From Fibrobacterota bacterium (lineage in GTDB: Bacteria; Fibrobacterota; Fibrobacteria; UBA11236), in the NCBI GenBank assembly GCA_947466585.1, contig CANIEU010000012.1, forward strand, positions 1 to 63,784: DNA of 63,784 bases. The letters run 5' to 3'. Positions 6,273 through 60,353 of the stretch are shown here, one piece after another (the stretch's first letter is position 1; every line of letters begins with the position of its first letter). The position numbers were made by a program, and so were the translations under genes. Under the pieces are notes generated by a model. The model saw nothing but the letters and a program-made list of their open reading frames with translations. It was not told the DNA's origin and made no database searches.

Positions 6273-7670
6273 ATGTCTGAAACCGTTGACGCACTTTTAG
6301 CCCAAGGCGGTGATTCCGCAGCGGCTCCTGCGTCTGGAGAGAAAAAAGCGTACACGGTCGAGCAGTACAACAGGGCCGTCGAACGGAAGATGAAGGAGTT
6401 CCCCCGCATCTGGGTCAAGGGTGTCCTGACCCAGGTCAATGTGCGGGGCAAGGCGGTTTATATGGAGCTGGCCGACTTCGTCGAAGGCGACTCCCGTCCC
6501 AAGGCCATTCTTCCCGTGATGATGTGGGCGTGGGACTTCGACAATTTTTCGGCCCGCTTCGCTCAGCTTCCCACCCCCTTCAAGATTCAGACCGAGCTCA
6601 AGGTTTCCTTCCTGCTCGAGTCGAGCTTTTACGTTCCCACCGGGCGCTTCCAGCCCAAGGTGGTGGATGTCGACGAGTCATTCACCTTGGGCGAGTTGGC
6701 CAAGACCCGGCAAAAGATTCTCGAGACCCTCCGTCGCGAGGGGTTACTCGAGGCGAACAAGAAACGGGTTCTGGCGGACCTCCCTCTGCGCGTGGGTCTC
6801 ATCTCAGCCCGCGGGTCCGCGGCCTTTCAAGATTTCACCACGATCCTGCTTCAGTCCGGCTTTTCCTTTGACATTGTCTTCGCCGAGGCGCGCATGCAGG
6901 GGCAGGAGACCGAGCCCACCGTAATCGCCGCTTTCGAACTTTTAGCCCGCCGGTCTCTCGACGTGATCTGCCTCGTGCGCGGCGGCGGTTCCAAAACCGA
7001 CCTAGTGTACTTTGACTCGGAAAAAATCTGCCGTGCCATCGCCACTTGCCCGGTACCCGTGCTTACGGGGATTGGTCACGAGATCGACCGATCCCTTTCA
7101 GATATCTTAGCTTATGAAGATTTGTTGACGCCTACCGATTGCGCCAAATTCTTGGAAAGCCGGGTAGCGGATGTATGGGCCTCCGTATGCCGCCGCGCCG
7201 AAGCCCTGCAGGAATCCTGGGACCAGGCTTATCGAAACGAAGGGGTTTCGGTCATGGAGCGTGCGGAGTCGCTGCGTTCCAACTGGGATAGCCGGTCGCA
7301 GCGTGAGGTGCAGAAGCAGTCCGATGTGGCACGTAACATTGTTCTTGCAAGCAACCGATTTGTAAAGGGTTGCCGTGAAAAGCTCGTACTAAACCGCATC
7401 GGTCTCGTGCGCGGCCCCGAGAAAATCGTGCGGCTCGAAACCGTGCGGCTCGATCTGAAGGCCAAACTGGTGCAGGCCTCCGATCCGGTAGCCTTGCTCA
7501 AGCGCGGGTTCGCTCAGGTGGTGACGGCCTCGGGGAACTGGATCCGCGGCGCGCAGGATACCGCAACCGGGGAAACCATCCACATCCGCTTCGCCGATGG
7601 CACCATCGGCGCGCGGGTCGAGACGATAGAGAACAACGAAAACACGGAATCGAAGGAGCAGGACTCATGA
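6273..7670 (+). CDS. xseA: Exodeoxyribonuclease VII large subunit
   Basis: Catalytic/DNA-binding subunit of ExoVII, which degrades single-stranded DNA from both ends to oligonucleotides; 465 residues. An N-terminal OB-fold (about 30-135, with YTVEQYNRAVERKM and IWVKGVLTQV) precedes the catalytic region. There LISARGSAAFQDF, LVRGGGSKTDLVYFDSE and GIGHEIDRSLSD are the conserved blocks. A coiled-coil region (about 300-400) and a C-terminal segment (LLKRGFAQVVTASGNWIRG) complete it. It overlaps xseB by 4 nt (ATGA), so the two subunits are translationally coupled. Confidence 0.95.
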   Translation: MSETVDALLAQGGDSAAAPASGEKKAYTVEQYNRAVERKMKEFPRIWVKGVLTQVNVRGKAVYMELADFVEGDSRPKAILPVMMWAWDFDNFSARFAQLPTPFKIQTELKVSFLLESSFYVPTGRFQPKVVDVDESFTLGELAKTRQKILETLRREGLLEANKKRVLADLPLRVGLISARGSAAFQDFTTILLQSGFSFDIVFAEARMQGQETEPTVIAAFELLARRSLDVICLVRGGGSKTDLVYFDSEKICRAIATCPVPVLTGIGHEIDRSLSDILAYEDLLTPTDCAKFLESRVADVWASVCRRAEALQESWDQAYRNEGVSVMERAESLRSNWDSRSQREVQKQSDVARNIVLASNRFVKGCREKLVLNRIGLVRGPEKIVRLETVRLDLKAKLVQASDPVALLKRGFAQVVTASGNWIRGAQDTATGETIHIRFADGTIGARVETIENNENTESKEQDS

Positions 7671-53869: not shown

Positions 53870-55738
53870 ATGCCCGCTTCCGTCATTCAAGCGCTGACCC
53901 CGCTCACCATCCAGAAAATCGCGGCCGGAGAGGTCATCGAACGTCCCGTCAATGTGGTCAAGGAGCTGGTGGAAAACGCGCTCGATGCTGGAGCGACCAA
54001 GATCACCGTTACGCTCGAAGAGGGCGGCAAAGAGGGCATCCGTGTTGCCGACGACGGCTTCGGAATGACGCGCGACGATCTGGAAAAGTGTTGGCTACCG
54101 CACACCACCAGCAAGATCCGCGCGGTGGAGGATCTCGAGAGCGTGTCGAGTTTCGGGTTTCGCGGCGAGGCGCTCGCCAGCATGGGCTCGGTATCCGAGC
54201 TGACCATCGAAACCCGGCATTGGGAAGAAACGCTTGGCAGCCGCCTACGCGTGGTCGAATCTCAGGTCGAGGAGCTGGGCGACTTCGCACGCGGGCAGGG
54301 CACCACCATCAGCGTGCGCAATCTGTTCCGCAACAATCCCGTGCGCCGCAAGTTCCTCGGCACCGCCAAGACCGAGACCTCGCGCATTACCACCATGTTG
54401 ACGCGCCTGTCGTTGGCGCATCCCGACGTGTTGTTCCGTCTCTCCGACGGGGTCCGCGAAGTTCTGCGACTTCAGGAAGGCACGCTGCGCCGACGTGCTG
54501 GCGATGTGCTCGGCGTGCATCTGCTCGACGATCTGATCGAGGTGGACTGGGAAGGTGGCGGCATCCACATCCAGGGCTACGTCTCCGAGCCGCAACGCTT
54601 CTCGGGTCGTCAGGGGCAACAGCACTTTTTCGTGAACCGTCGCAACGTGTTCAACCCGATCCTCGCCCGCGCGCTGATGCAGGCCTACGAAGTGGTGCCT
54701 CCGGGGCGCCATCCCGTAGCGGCTCTGTTCTTGTCCATCTCGCCCGCCGAGATCGACGTCAACGTGCATCCCACCAAGCGCGAGATCCGCTTCCTCAACG
54801 AAGCGCGCGTGTTTTGGGCGCTGTCACAGGCATTGCGCGCCGCCTTGCGCGGGGCCATCGATGCCCCGGCCTTGGATTTGTCTGAATTGTCGGTACCGCC
54901 ACCCGCACCGGAATCCTCGCAAGAGTCTGTGGACACGGAACCTCGATCCGATTCTGCGGCTCCTGCATTTCCGTCCTTTCCAGGTTTCGCCTTCCAACCG
55001 GAATCGACCGAACGAGCCAACGGGACTTCCTCTTCGGTCGTCTCGGATCCGCGGGCCGCGGCGGATTCCGAAAAAGTCGCCCTGTTTCCCGAACTGCCGC
55101 GTGCAGCGTTTTCAGGTTCCGGTGGTTCCGCCGCTGAATTCACAGGCGCACCCTGTTTGCAGATCCATGGAAGCTTCATTCTCGTCGCGGTGCGTGGCGG
55201 GTTTTTGCTCGTCAACCAGCGCGCGGCACACGAGCGCATCCTTTATGAGAAGGCGCTGGAGGATTTGCGGCGGCCGGGCCGGTTCAGCGCCCAGCAACTG
55301 TTGTTCCCGGTTCTGGTCGAATTCAACACCGCCGAAGCACGCATTGTGGAGCAGCATTTGGTCGAGTTGCGCGGGCTCGGATTCGACCTCGAACCCTTCG
55401 GTGCCACGGCGTTTCAGTTGCGCGGCTCGCCCGCGGATGTCGCTTCCGACCTGGCTCAGCCGATCTTGCAGGAGTTGACGGGCCGTTTGCTCGACGACTC
55501 TTCCGGTCGGGGCAAGGACGAACCGGAGGAGATGCTGAAGCGGGTGGCCAAAGCCTACGCCCGGGCCGCTGCAGTGCCCCTCGACGCGCCTCTGGATGCC
55601 GCCCGCATGGCGGCGCTGGTGGACGGTTTGTTCGCCACCCAGAACCCGTATGTAACCCCCGCAGGGCTGCCGGTTCTCATCCGCTATTCGCTCGACGAGA
55701 TCCGCCGGCGTTTCGGGCTCAAGGAAGAGGAAGCCTGA
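53870..55738 (+). CDS. mutL: DNA mismatch repair protein MutL, apparently without endonuclease motif
   Basis: 622 residues from the ATG at 53870. The GHKL ATPase is intact: ELVENALDAGAT, VADDGFGM, and GFRGEALASMGSVSE. A low-complexity linker (about 340-425) leads to the C-terminal domain. Where endonuclease MutL proteins have DQHA(x)2E(x)4E, this one has NQRAAHERILYE, with Asp and His replaced. The Cys-containing ACR and CPHGRP motifs are replaced too (TPAGLPVLI). This resembles nuclease-free MutL. No mutS or mutH is in the window. Confidence 0.95.
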   Translation: MPASVIQALTPLTIQKIAAGEVIERPVNVVKELVENALDAGATKITVTLEEGGKEGIRVADDGFGMTRDDLEKCWLPHTTSKIRAVEDLESVSSFGFRGEALASMGSVSELTIETRHWEETLGSRLRVVESQVEELGDFARGQGTTISVRNLFRNNPVRRKFLGTAKTETSRITTMLTRLSLAHPDVLFRLSDGVREVLRLQEGTLRRRAGDVLGVHLLDDLIEVDWEGGGIHIQGYVSEPQRFSGRQGQQHFFVNRRNVFNPILARALMQAYEVVPPGRHPVAALFLSISPAEIDVNVHPTKREIRFLNEARVFWALSQALRAALRGAIDAPALDLSELSVPPPAPESSQESVDTEPRSDSAAPAFPSFPGFAFQPESTERANGTSSSVVSDPRAAADSEKVALFPELPRAAFSGSGGSAAEFTGAPCLQIHGSFILVAVRGGFLLVNQRAAHERILYEKALEDLRRPGRFSAQQLLFPVLVEFNTAEARIVEQHLVELRGLGFDLEPFGATAFQLRGSPADVASDLAQPILQELTGRLLDDSSGRGKDEPEEMLKRVAKAYARAAAVPLDAPLDAARMAALVDGLFATQNPYVTPAGLPVLIRYSLDEIRRRFGLKEEEA

Positions 55739-55893: not shown

Positions 55894-58800
55894 CTACTCG
55901 AGGCGCATCACCACGCCGGCCTGCGTAGCTGTCACCGGCAGAATGATCTGCGTGGCACCTGCGGGAACGATAGCCTGGTGGAGCATCACGCCGCGCACAT
56001 CGCGCATTTCGAAGCGGCGCATCTTTTCGGAGGCCGGGAGACGAATCACCCAGTTGTTGCCAAGGTGCGTAGCGGTGAAGAGCTGCTGCGAGGCGAGGGG
56101 AGAGCCCTTCACCACAACCACGATCCCGACCAGCGCGAAGTCCTTCTGAATCGAGTCGTTGGCCGGGACCAGGACGCTGTCCTGATTGCCCGGGTTGAAC
56201 CCGGTGGCGGTCGCGGTGATCCAGTAGTTCGGCGTTCCCGCGAGCAGGTTCGCAAAGCTGTAGCGGCCCGTGGAATCGCTGCGGACGCTGTCCTGGATCG
56301 TCGCCGTCGCGGAGCCGCGGCGCAAGACCAGCAGGGCTTTTGCGATGGTGGTGCTGTCACCCGACTTGCCGACCTTACCGTAGATGCGACCGCGCGCTGC
56401 GAGGGCCAGCGTGAAGTTGGAAGTGAGGGCGGCACCCGAGGTGACGTTGATGTTGGCGTTGCTGGCACCTACGTAACCGGTGAGGTTCGCGGTCACACGG
56501 TAGTTGTTCGCCAGGGTCAGGCCGTTGAAGGCGTAGTTGCCGAGCGAGTCGGTCTTGGCGCTGTCCACCACGGCCGTAGTGGCACCACCGCGACGCAGTT
56601 GGACCACCGCATTGCGAAGGGCGAGGCTGTCGGGCAATCCGCGGACCTTGCCGCTGATCGAACCCGGAACCGTGAGCAGGAAGTTCGAGGTCACCGTTCC
56701 GCCATTGGGGACGGCCACGTTCGTGTTGCTGCCGAGGTTCAGACCGGTGGAAACGGCGGAGACCCAGTAGTTCGGTGTGCCGGCCACCAAGGTGTTGAAG
56801 GCGTAGTGTCCGACCGAATCGGTGCGAACGCTGTCCATCACCAGAGCGGTGTCCGAGCCACGGCGCAGTCGCACCAGGGCATTGGCAACCAAGGCGCTAT
56901 CGGGCAGCTTGCGTACAGTACCGGTGATCGAACCGGGCAACACGAGCGTCAGGTAGAAGTTGGAAGTCACCGAGGCACCGCTGGCCACCGCAACGTTCGC
57001 GTTGGTCGAGGATACATAGGATGCACGGCTTGCCGTGACCCAGTAGTTCGGCGTACCCGACTGCACGCTGGCAAAGGCGTAGTGACCGACGGAGTCGGTC
57101 TTGGTGCTGTCCAAGATCGCCGAGGTTGCCGAGGTGCGGCGCAGGTAGACCGCCGCGTTGGCGAGGGCTGTGCTGTCGGTGGCCTTACGGACCGTACCCG
57201 AGATCGATCCGGGGATGCCGAGATAGAAGTTGGTGGTCGTGGTCACACCGTTGGTCGCCGTGATTGCCGTGTTGGTTGCACTCACGAAGCCTGCGGCGCT
57301 GGCGTACACGCGATATTGGGTGGCACCGCCGCCGCCGCCGCCAGTGCTGGCGGTGAGGTTCGCGAAGGTATATGCACCGGTGGTATCTGTGCGACCGCTG
57401 TCCAGAATGGCCGTGGTATCGGAAGTTCCGCGACGGAGGTACACCAGCGCATTGCTGATGTTCGTGCTGTCGGAGAGCTTGCGGACGCGGGCGGTGATCT
57501 TGCCGAGGGCGGTGAGATAGATATTCGAAACAACACTGGCGCCGTTGGCGACCGCGATATTGGAGTTCGAGGTGGCCGCGTAGCCGTTGGCGCTGGCGGT
57601 CACGAAGTAGTTCGGCGTGCCCGCGACCAAGCCGGCGAAGGCGTAATGGCCGACCGAGTCGGAAAGCGTGCTGTCCTGGATCGGGTTTGTGGTCGAGGTG
57701 CGGCGGAGATAAACCTTCGCGCCGGCGATGTTGGTGCTGTCCGTCGCCTTGCGCACGTTACCCGCAATGTTGCCGGGCAATACCGGGGTCAAGTACACGT
57801 TCGAGCTCACTGTGGAGCCGCTGGCCACCACGAGGTTCGAATTCGAGGCCGTGAGGAAGTTTGTCGCACTTGCGGTCACGAAGTAATTCGGCGTTCCCGG
57901 CGTGAGGTTGGCGAAGGCGTAGTTTCCGACCGAGTCGGTCAGCACGCTGTCCTGGACCGGATTCGTGGTCGAGGTGCGGCGCAGGTAAACCGAAGCGCCG
58001 GCGATGGAGGTGCTGTCGGTGGACTTGCGGACCTTGCCCGAGATCGAGCCCGGCGTGCCGAGGTAGAAGTTGGTCGTGGTCGTGGTGGCGTTGGTCACGT
58101 TGATCGCGGTATTGGTCACGCTGACGTAGCCGGCCGCACTGGCGTACACGCGATACTGAGTGGCACCGCCGCCACCGCCGCCAGTGCTGGCGGTGAGGTT
58201 CGCGAAGGTGAAGGCACCGGTCGTATCGGTGCGACCGCTATCGAGGATGGCCGAGGTATCGGTGGTTCCGCGACGGAGCAGTACCAAGGCGTTCGAGACG
58301 TTGGTGCTGTCGTTGAGTTTGCGAACGCGAGCGGTGATCTTGCCGAGAGCCGTCAGGTAAATGTTCGAGACGGTGTTCGCGCCGTTGTTCACCACGATAT
58401 TCGAGTTGGAAGCACCGGCAAAACCGGTGGCCGCGAAAGTCACGAAGTAGTTGGGGGTGCCGGCCGTGAGGTTCGCGAAGGCGTAGGCGCCCGAACCGTC
58501 AGAAACCGTGCTGTCCTGGATGGGGTTGGTGGTCGAGGTGCGGCGGAGATAAATCTTCGCGCCAGTGATTGCGGTGCTGTCGGTCGCCTTGCGCACCGCT
58601 CCCGTGATCGAGCCCGGCAATACGGGCACGAGATACACGTTGGAGGTGACGGCGGCGCCGGTTCCCACCACGATGTTCGAATTGGAACCTGTGACGAAGT
58701 TCGCCGCGCTGGCGGTCACGAAGTAATTGGGCGTGCCGGGGGTCAGGTTGGCGAAGGCGTAGTTCCCGAGCGAGTCGGTCTTGACGCTGTCCTGCACCGG

Positions 58801-60093
58801 ATTCGTGGTCGAGGTGCGGCGCAGGTAAACCGAAGCGCCGGCGATATTGGTGCTGTCCGTGCTCTTGCGCACCTTGCCCGAGATCGAGCCCGGCGTGCCG
58901 AGGTAAAAGTTTGTGGCGGTGGTCACGCCGTTGGTGACGGTGATGCCCGTCGTGCTCGTACTCACGTACCCGGCAGAGGTGACGTACACGCGGTAGTTGT
59001 TACCTGCGCTGGCCGCGAGGTTTGCGAACGAGCGCGCACCCAAGGAGTCGGTGCGACCGCTGTCGAGGATGGCCGAAGTGTCGGTGTTGCCGCGGCGGAG
59101 TAACACCAACGCTCCTGCGATGTTGGTGCTGTCGGAGAGCTTGCGGACCCGTATGGCGATCTTGCCCAAGGTGAGCAGGTAGATGTTGGAAACCGTGTTG
59201 GCGCCGTTGTTCACCAACACGTTGGAATTGGAAGCGGTAATCAGGCTGGAGGCCGAGTAGGTGAGGAAGTAGTTCGGGGTGCCGGCGGTGAGGTTCGCAA
59301 AGGCGTAGGCGCCGACGGAGTCAGACAGCGTGCTATCCTGAATGGGGTTGGTCGTGGAAGTGCGGCGCAGGTAGATCAAGGCGCCGGCGACGGTGCTGCT
59401 GTCGGAACCGCGACGGACCGTTCCGGAAATAGAACCGGGCAGGATCGGGGAGATGTATACGTTTGAAATGACCGAAGCACCGCTGTTCAGCACGATGTTC
59501 GAGTTGGAGGTCGTCGCATAGCCGGTCAGGCTCACGGTGACGAAGTAGTTGGGAGTTCCGGGAGCCTTGTTCGTAAAGGCATAATTGCCGATGGAGTCGG
59601 TCTTGGCACTGTCCAGAATCGCGGTGGCGGTCGAGGTGCGGCGCAGGTATACCGAGGCATTAGCCACGGCCGTACTGTCGGTGCTCTTTCGGACCTTGCC
59701 CGAGATCGATCCCGGCACGCCGAGGTAGAAGTTCGCCGTGGCCACCGTGGTGGTTTGGAACAGGTTCACCGTGGTGGAGCCCTGTGCGTATCCGGACATC
59801 TCGGCCACGATCTGGCGGTTGTTGCCGGTGGGAATGTTGATTAGGGAGTAGGCGCCGGTCGAGTCGGCGGTCGCCGAGTCGGAGCGCACTGCACCCGTCA
59901 ACCAGTACACCTTGGCGCCTTGAAGCGCGGTGCTGTCGGTCAACTTGCGCACCACGCCGTTAACCGTCGCAGCGGGTGTGGTCGCGGGAAGCGCGAAAAA
60001 TGCCAAGGCGAGCAGGACGGCGGAGACCGTCGATTTCAGGCTGCGCGGCCGAGCGCTCAGGCGACTGAGGAGGCGGGTGAGGAGAACGGGCAT
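55894..60093 (-). CDS. Giant secreted protein of tandem carboxypeptidase-regulatory-like domains
   Basis: 1399 residues from the ATG at 60093 (AAGGAAT upstream). The signal peptide (VSAVLLALAFFALPATTPAA) ends near residue 43. Then come 14 tandem units of about 85-95 residues, each with a start like PGSISGKVRKSTDST, a YLRR turn, a TDS.G.YAFANL strand and a SNIYL end. This is the beta-sandwich pattern of CarboxypepD-regulatory/Cna-B-like domains. Units 1-9 form three copies of an A-B-C trio, the C unit opening LGKI. Units 6 and 9 have a GGGGGG insert. The last ~70 residues (FEMRDVRGVML ... TQAGVVMRLE) look like a sorting tail. It is probably an adhesive or stalk-like surface protein; no enzyme domain. 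Confidence 0.8.
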   Translation of the reverse strand: MPVLLTRLLSRLSARPRSLKSTVSAVLLALAFFALPATTPAATVNGVVRKLTDSTALQGAKVYWLTGAVRSDSATADSTGAYSLINIPTGNNRQIVAEMSGYAQGSTTVNLFQTTTVATANFYLGVPGSISGKVRKSTDSTAVANASVYLRRTSTATAILDSAKTDSIGNYAFTNKAPGTPNYFVTVSLTGYATTSNSNIVLNSGASVISNVYISPILPGSISGTVRRGSDSSTVAGALIYLRRTSTTNPIQDSTLSDSVGAYAFANLTAGTPNYFLTYSASSLITASNSNVLVNNGANTVSNIYLLTLGKIAIRVRKLSDSTNIAGALVLLRRGNTDTSAILDSGRTDSLGARSFANLAASAGNNYRVYVTSAGYVSTSTTGITVTNGVTTATNFYLGTPGSISGKVRKSTDSTNIAGASVYLRRTSTTNPVQDSVKTDSLGNYAFANLTPGTPNYFVTASAANFVTGSNSNIVVGTGAAVTSNVYLVPVLPGSITGAVRKATDSTAITGAKIYLRRTSTTNPIQDSTVSDGSGAYAFANLTAGTPNYFVTFAATGFAGASNSNIVVNNGANTVSNIYLTALGKITARVRKLNDSTNVSNALVLLRRGTTDTSAILDSGRTDTTGAFTFANLTASTGGGGGGATQYRVYASAAGYVSVTNTAINVTNATTTTTNFYLGTPGSISGKVRKSTDSTSIAGASVYLRRTSTTNPVQDSVLTDSVGNYAFANLTPGTPNYFVTASATNFLTASNSNLVVASGSTVSSNVYLTPVLPGNIAGNVRKATDSTNIAGAKVYLRRTSTTNPIQDSTLSDSVGHYAFAGLVAGTPNYFVTASANGYAATSNSNIAVANGASVVSNIYLTALGKITARVRKLSDSTNISNALVYLRRGTSDTTAILDSGRTDTTGAYTFANLTASTGGGGGGATQYRVYASAAGFVSATNTAITATNGVTTTTNFYLGIPGSISGTVRKATDSTALANAAVYLRRTSATSAILDSTKTDSVGHYAFASVQSGTPNYWVTASRASYVSSTNANVAVASGASVTSNFYLTLVLPGSITGTVRKLPDSALVANALVRLRRGSDTALVMDSVRTDSVGHYAFNTLVAGTPNYWVSAVSTGLNLGSNTNVAVPNGGTVTSNFLLTVPGSISGKVRGLPDSLALRNAVVQLRRGGATTAVVDSAKTDSLGNYAFNGLTLANNYRVTANLTGYVGASNANINVTSGAALTSNFTLALAARGRIYGKVGKSGDSTTIAKALLVLRRGSATATIQDSVRSDSTGRYSFANLLAGTPNYWITATATGFNPGNQDSVLVPANDSIQKDFALVGIVVVVKGSPLASQQLFTATHLGNNWVIRLPASEKMRRFEMRDVRGVMLHQAIVPAGATQIILPVTATQAGVVMRLE

Positions 60094-60353
60094 CGGAATT
60101 CCTTGATTGTGCGTTTTGTCGCAATTTTTGCGGTTCGAAAATTTAAGGCAAAAGGTCAAATTCGTGTCTCAGACATTACGGTATTTGATAAGAAATTGGG
60201 GACAGCGTGTCCCCTCCGATGGGTACCCGAAAACCCAGTTTTTTACCAGAAAAAGGTGTTTTGGGTTCTGACCAAATTGCCTTCTAGGCAAAGTCCTTGA
60301 ATACAGATGAAAAAAGGTGGAACACACCCCGAAGACCCTAGGGAAGAGGGCGG

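Follow-up and report, generated by a model that had tools for sequence, protein, structure and literature searches.

The window analysed here, a stretch of 63,784 nucleotides, is contig C12 of a Fibrobacterota genome (G000; 2.24 Mb in 28 contigs, 98.43% complete) and carries a mutL gene at 53870..55738 on the + strand. The gene encodes a protein of 622 amino acids plus stop, which scored 466.7 bits against TIGR00585 (cut-off 180), and a profile search of the protein gave the domain order ATPase, transducer and C-terminal domain. The N-terminal GHKL ATPase domain (53870..54874, +; PF13589, PF02518 and PF01119) carries ELVENALDAG, DDGFG, GFRGEA and DVNVHPTK, which we take to be the ATPase motifs of MutL and which were all conserved in a motif conservation check. 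The C-terminal dimerisation domain (55157..55717, +), defined by a PF08676 match at residues 430-568, an AlphaFold2 model and PDB matches, has a predicted endonuclease fold, apparently without the metal site. The model (202 residues, pLDDT 93, pTM 0.87) matched NgoL (3ncv_B, Z 18.4), Bacillus subtilis MutL (3kdk_A, Z 15.2, 184 residues aligned, rmsd 3.9, 29% identity) and Escherichia coli MutL (1x9z_B, Z 13.6, 177 residues, rmsd 3.3), and resembled in structure comparison MutL domains both with and without a nuclease. Within this domain, a putative beta-clamp binding motif, QQLLFP (55292..55309, +), was assigned from class conservation and structural alignment to clamp-MutL complexes; it fits Q-x-x-L-x-P, presumably the beta-clamp binding pattern, and the MutL portion of two crystal structures of such complexes, 6e8d and 6e8e, aligns with residues 52-148 of the model (Z 9.6 and 9.4). 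Downstream of mutL, a gene at 55894-60159 on the minus strand encodes a 1421 amino acid protein with many similar modules; a 1071 amino acid open frame opposite this gene is probably spurious.

According to PMC10366529, the endonuclease motifs of MutL are DQHAX2EX4E, ACR and CPHGRP, the Asp of the first motif is critical although it does not ligate the metal, and in the Aquifex protein Arg406 is catalytic. All three motifs are degenerate in the window. The first, NQRAAHERILYE (55214..55249, +; multiple alignment and alignment to solved structures), has Asn for Asp and Arg for His, with both Glu retained. The second reads ARA (55559..55567, +; multiple alignment), with Arg in the Cys column of ACR, and the third reads TPAGLP (55655..55672, +; multiple alignment and alignment to solved structures), in which Cys, His and Arg are replaced by Thr, Ala and Leu. 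Six of the eight catalytic or metal-site positions are thus replaced (Asp, His, Cys, Cys, His and Arg). When the protein was aligned to the B. subtilis C-domain (3gab, 3kdg and 3kdk, E 2e-20), the first and last motifs of the two proteins faced each other; the middle motif aligned less tightly to these structures and its assignment comes from the multiple alignment. In the alignment, the wild-type and R406T (8h1g) structures of the Aquifex protein differ at the CPHGRP Arg, which places R406 in this motif, and the catalytic Arg thus corresponds to Leu in the window's MutL. Judged from residues and alignment, the endonuclease metal site is absent from this protein, in agreement with the earlier note, which had described a MutL without the endonuclease metal-binding motif. 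Same-genus genomes (n = 3) read NREERTAL, NQEERTSA and NQEERTTA at the eight positions, for which the intact state is DHEECCHR. The change is no chance event or sequencing error, since the same-genus genomes and all 120 rows of the class share the loss.

To determine the extent of the loss, these positions (in order D, H, E, E, C, C, H and R) were read in MutL C-terminal domains from across the phylum. A profile search gave a MutL_C match in 120 of the 126 genomes of the class Fibrobacteria (families f1, f3, f4 and f5), and 119 of these 120 were read, as 64 rows from 63 genomes plus 56 further genomes, with G049 left out. Neither Cys nor the second His is kept in any of the 119 genomes (0/120 rows; 0/64 and 0/56). 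Outside the class, 38 of the 40 genomes with a match were read (34 plus 4, with G008 and G030 left out), of which 37 have the intact DHEECCHR. The alignment across the phylum, which the earlier note had proposed, thereby marks the loss as a property of the lineage. The one exception outside the class, G038 (L423), reads DREERGDR and comes from a genome with an estimated contamination of 7%. Its domain is 66% identical to that of the intact family member G036, for which reason G038 is apparently a separate loss and not a foreign gene; G037 of the same family is also intact.

Within the class the site has not decayed to the same degree everywhere. Asp is kept in 107/120 rows, the first His in 90/120, the first Glu in 12/120, the last Glu in 120/120 and Arg in 10/120, so that the degree of decay varies between families. 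In the window's family Asp is always Asn, which places this family among the most degraded in the class. The window's genus thus stands at the degraded end of a site that is not uniformly eroded, a point against the reading favoured below, in which MutL has lost its nicking activity. In the set of 64 class rows, all of which have the last Glu and none of which has either Cys or the second His, the motif neighbours Q30, A33, H34, P177 and G179 (C-domain numbering) are each kept in 63-64 rows. Loss therefore centres on functional residues, with the presumed structural positions of the old motifs retained. Not every former catalytic column is unusually variable: the second Cys column holds Ser, Thr or Ala, and Asp predominates in its own column. 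In the class rows the clamp motif is nearly invariant (Q 64/64, L 64/64, P 63/64); it is equally kept outside the class in the same phylum (Q 34/34, P 34/34) and is therefore not specific to MutL proteins with a dead nuclease.

These counts bear on the explanation that MutL still cuts DNA with a metal site that is minimal or has been rebuilt. Such a site would fit the two Glu that the first motif retains in the window's MutL, the last Glu present in all class rows, and the Asp and first His found in the majority of class members beyond the window's family. Against it, Asp, the catalytic Arg, both Cys and both His are missing from the window's MutL, and the class rows combine the scarcity of the first Glu and of Arg with the complete absence of both Cys and the second His. 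A metal site built from other residues, the refutation that the earlier note had set beforehand, found no support in the class alignment: no new Asp, Glu, His or Cys column was both fixed in the class and present in the window's MutL. The only class-specific acidic column adjoining the clamp motif is C-domain position 61, which is Glu in 60/64 rows and Val in the window's MutL. We consider continued cutting by MutL itself very improbable.

Loss of the site was also found outside Fibrobacterota. Among 78 further loci from a genome collection, 40 were degenerate and 38 intact; because the peptide HERILYEK served in part to find these loci, sequences with the Glu retained are over-represented among them. 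In a quick tree built from the MutL N-terminal domain (120 rows, 336 columns), the intact or lost state changes three times: in Fibrobacteria (SH-aLRT 96, on one side of the branch), in a Bacteroidota group of 39 rows (SH-aLRT 100) and in one Calditrichaeota row. The change count on the tree does not separate loss from gain; since the eight intact residues form a complex state that B. subtilis also has, the changes were read as losses. Together with G038, the three changes on the tree give at least four independent losses. In a separate Bacteroidota draw, MutL_C was matched in 247/247 genomes, with a single match in all except G372 and G447. Of the 90 Bacteroidota rows read, which comprise the 30 best-scoring and 60 others among the matches listed and do not include the lowest-scoring ones, 63 were intact, 26 lacked both Cys and the second His and one was partial. 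The strict clamp pattern was present in 17/27 of the non-intact rows of this draw compared to 56/63 of the intact rows. The partial row, L284 (G246), represents a Bacteroidota MutL caught half way, with DQNAAHERILYE for DQHA, ARR for the Cys motif and CPQGRP, so that the Cys and Arg of CPHGRP are kept.

A MutL without a metal site raises the question of what cuts the DNA, and the earlier note had suggested that this lineage may use another strand-discrimination nuclease and had proposed a search of the genome for mutH, a second mutL, mutS variants and nucleases beside mutS. No MutH match (PF02976) at E <= 0.1 was found in G000, which is 98.43% complete as stated above; the same profile matched 1 of 14 control genomes, this one being E. 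coli. Across the phylum 18/167 genomes matched at E <= 0.1, 12 of them over the cut-off, and all 18 belong to family f4. MutH was rejected for the class, as the over-cut-off matches lie in frames of 386-557 amino acids and the two that were typed (G145 and G147) are Sau3AI-family restriction enzymes, with NF040973 scores of 457 and 532 bits (cut-off 300). By extension from these two, the remaining f4 matches were taken to be of the Sau3AI type as well. Sau3AI-type GATC restriction enzymes (L150-L154 in f4, two of these five typed), with two MutH-like domains in about 470 amino acids, can be mistaken for MutH in Pfam. Outside Fibrobacterota, 0/40 genomes with a degenerate MutL had a MutH match over the cut-off, and three had weak matches below it. 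Among ten intact-MutL genomes searched alongside, one (G212, Ignavibacteriaceae) had a MutH-like match over the cut-off, in a 240 amino acid frame (L268). A protein that by eye resembles a Dam-type methylase lies in the same G212 locus, and the two are perhaps a GATC restriction-modification pair.

NucS was likewise not detected in G000 (PF01939, E <= 0.01), with 7 of 14 control genomes matching. In the phylum 116/167 genomes matched at E <= 0.01, 42 over the cut-off; many among the matches listed are untyped stretches of about 40 residues in short frames, and the best ones (G005 and G051) cover profile positions 2 to 92-95 in untyped frames of 263-285 amino acids. G000 has one MutL_C match at E <= 10 and one full MutL; TIGR00585 also matched eight short stretches of ATPase fold, none of them above 19 bits. 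A second, canonical MutL is thus not present in G000, as the earlier note's reading would have it, and a heterodimer partner was rejected for this genome. Two MutL_C matches each were found in G049, G056 and G090 in the phylum and in G372 and G447 in the Bacteroidota draw; both copies in G056 have the same lost pattern. A fusion of MutL to a nuclease was considered for the frames of 1153 and 860 amino acids in G041 and G042 and was rejected, the extra part being by eye GC-rich upstream DNA with no domain. Only one MutS is encoded in G000 (a single MutS_V match). In 39 clustered neighbourhoods, in which few genes were typed, no nuclease recurred beside mutL or mutS except RecJ, whose recurrence near mutS is that of the window's genus; the suggestion of a nuclease next to mutS was not borne out beyond this. 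Of the broader suggestion, the lineage-wide loss of the endonuclease site, the lack of MutH and the single MutL hold, and no replacement nuclease was found. As the searches covered known families and neighbourhoods, it is possible that a nuclease of an unrecognised family is encoded elsewhere in the genome.

One protein of the class deserves mention in this respect. A protein of 425-450 amino acids lies head-to-head with mutL in seven genomes of f3 and f4 (L199:10090-11394 in G060, L193:6446-7774 in G041 and L141:82-1428 in G042, and also L197, L198, L200 and L142), and edge fragments were found in three more. It has no match in Pfam, NCBIfam or PHROGs, and its PDB match (E 0.85) is at chance level. 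Conservation is strong over the final 110 residues, which by eye have the look of a winged-helix DNA-binding domain. In the window's family, and likewise in G044, G148, G151 and G164, mutL has no such neighbour. The protein could be a partner of MutL. A dedicated, unrecognised endonuclease that MutL recruits, and that takes over strand-specific nicking from MutH or from MutL itself, would account for the retention of MutS and MutL and of the matchmaker parts of MutL, and has a precedent in E. coli, where a nuclease-dead MutL can serve a separate nuclease. The conserved head-to-head protein would fit it too. We regard it as unlikely, as G000 has no MutH or NucS match, RecJ was the only nuclease seen to recur beside mutL or mutS in the neighbourhoods, and each of the at least four separate losses would require such an enzyme; the head-to-head protein is absent beside mutL in the window's family and its C-terminus suggests a winged helix, not a nuclease. 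The more specific version, in which such a nuclease, perhaps the head-to-head protein, replaces MutH in class Fibrobacteria and in part of Bacteroidota, appears quite unlikely. If true, it would represent a further kind of bacterial mismatch-repair incision.

The partners of MutL were analyzed as well. MutS of G000 (at about 254180-256865 on C1) has five domains. For a MutS sample 20 regions were fetched, of which 18 gave a MutS frame in the cluster (15 in the class), and all 18 contain GDF[YF]E together with Q-x-[SDTN]-hydrophobic-hydrophobic near the C-terminus. We take GDFYE to be the mismatch-reading motif and the second pattern, QVDLF in G000, to be a clamp-type motif. In G000, mutS, recJ (C1:260646-262277) and a PcrA/UvrD-like helicase gene (C1:276072-278318) lie within 25 kb of one another, and xseA, which encodes the exodeoxyribonuclease VII large subunit, a candidate excision enzyme, is located in the window at 6273..7670 (+; profile match C12:6354-7622). 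Among 22 genomes searched, including G000, which matched each time, recJ was found in 20, xseA in 22 and the pcrA/uvrD-like gene in 22, the last with matches below the strict family cut-off in all 22 genomes. The two without a recJ match, G205 and G184, are Bacteroidota with a lost MutL. The class thus retains the fold, ATPase motifs and beta-clamp motif of MutL alongside MutS, RecJ, ExoVII and a UvrD-like helicase.

That mismatch repair works in these bacteria at all is presumed from their sequences. We think it rather probable that the window's MutL is a true, vertically inherited mismatch-repair MutL which has kept its other parts and lost its own nicking activity, and that such a nuclease-dead matchmaker directs excision from breaks that already exist in the new strand, with no dedicated incision enzyme. 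MutS would detect the mismatch and load ATP-bound MutL, which would dock on sliding clamps left on the new DNA and so sense the strand. The helicase and single-strand exonucleases would then begin excision at breaks already in the new strand, such as Okazaki-fragment ends and nicks from ribonucleotide removal. A Pseudomonas review (PMC8744996) carries the suggestion that mismatch repair starts at natural nicks, namely Okazaki ends and RNase HII sites, and calls the authorisation of repair on the leading strand unclear. Breaks on the leading strand could be too scarce for this, in which case incision would remain necessary. It has further to be considered that MutS and MutL mainly block recombination between diverged DNA and load a helicase, with correction of replication errors weak or absent. 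This role would presumably not require a nick, and recombination editing in E. coli is described as strongly dependent on MutS and MutL and less on MutH in a review (PMC8235422). MutS1, with its five domains and putative mismatch-reading motif GDFYE, and the clamp-type motifs in both MutS and MutL, which point to work behind the replication fork, argue against it, and we consider it improbable as the main role.

Comparison with known systems places the predicted break-directed repair in context. E. coli MutL has no nuclease motif; it shares the fold of the window's MutL and its clamp-binding segment is alignable to it (6e8e_A, Z 9.4, 87 residues), but it is paired with MutH and Dam, whereas G000 has no MutH match. 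MLH1 is a MutL family subunit without the endonuclease motif, and C-domain chains of this eukaryotic protein match the window model (3rbn_B, Z 10.6; 4fmn_A, Z 10.3). MLH1 forms a heterodimer with a nuclease subunit, whereas no second MutL was found in G000. NucS/EndoMS represents bacterial mismatch repair outside the scheme of MutH or MutL nuclease, as would be the case here, but G000 lacks a NucS match (E <= 0.01) and has MutS and MutL. B. subtilis MutL has the same fold, has its beta-clamp motif at the same position and likewise functions in an organism without MutH (review PMC12733681); it keeps DQHA, the Cys motif and CPHGRP, whereas in the window's MutL nothing of these remains but the first motif's two Glu.

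In reviews, C-domain endonuclease activity is ascribed to organisms without MutH (PMC8235422) and to many bacteria and all eukaryotes (PMC12733681). The class Fibrobacteria appears to depart from the rule that without MutH the MutL C-domain is an endonuclease. For bacteria with MutS and MutL the reviews offer two routes, in which either MutH or MutL cuts, and the genomes read from the class, together with a clade of Bacteroidota, appear to be without either. If repair works in them, it needs no dedicated incision enzyme, and they form a natural setting in which to test whether replication-borne breaks alone mark the new strand. The automatic label 'DNA mismatch repair endonuclease MutL' is wrong for genomes with the lost site. 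No report of a nuclease-less MutL in Fibrobacterota or Bacteroidota was present among the open-literature matches listed, as seen in titles and abstract openings, with subscription journals largely outside this set. This silence is weak evidence of novelty and prior notice is possible. A nuclease-less MutL in itself is already known from E. coli and MLH1; what is apparently new is its occurrence as the sole MutL, without MutH, throughout a class and recurrently elsewhere.

Several further observations concern the genes around mutS and the exonuclease. In G000, a delta-prime-like clamp-loader gene is found near mutS and recJ (L204:9381-19661, on C1), and a DndB-like protein (PF14072) and an HD-domain protein are encoded between the latter two. 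In G161, recJ adjoins mutS at a distance of about 500 bases. Compared with the eight genomes that have an intact MutL (E 2e-133 to 7e-155), XseA matches were weaker both in the five Bacteroidota genomes with a lost MutL (E 2e-87 to 5e-104) and in 8 of the 9 genomes of class Fibrobacteria (E 9e-77 to 4e-89). The exception is G165, which has a lost MutL and a standard XseA (3e-139). ExoVII may have changed along with MutL.
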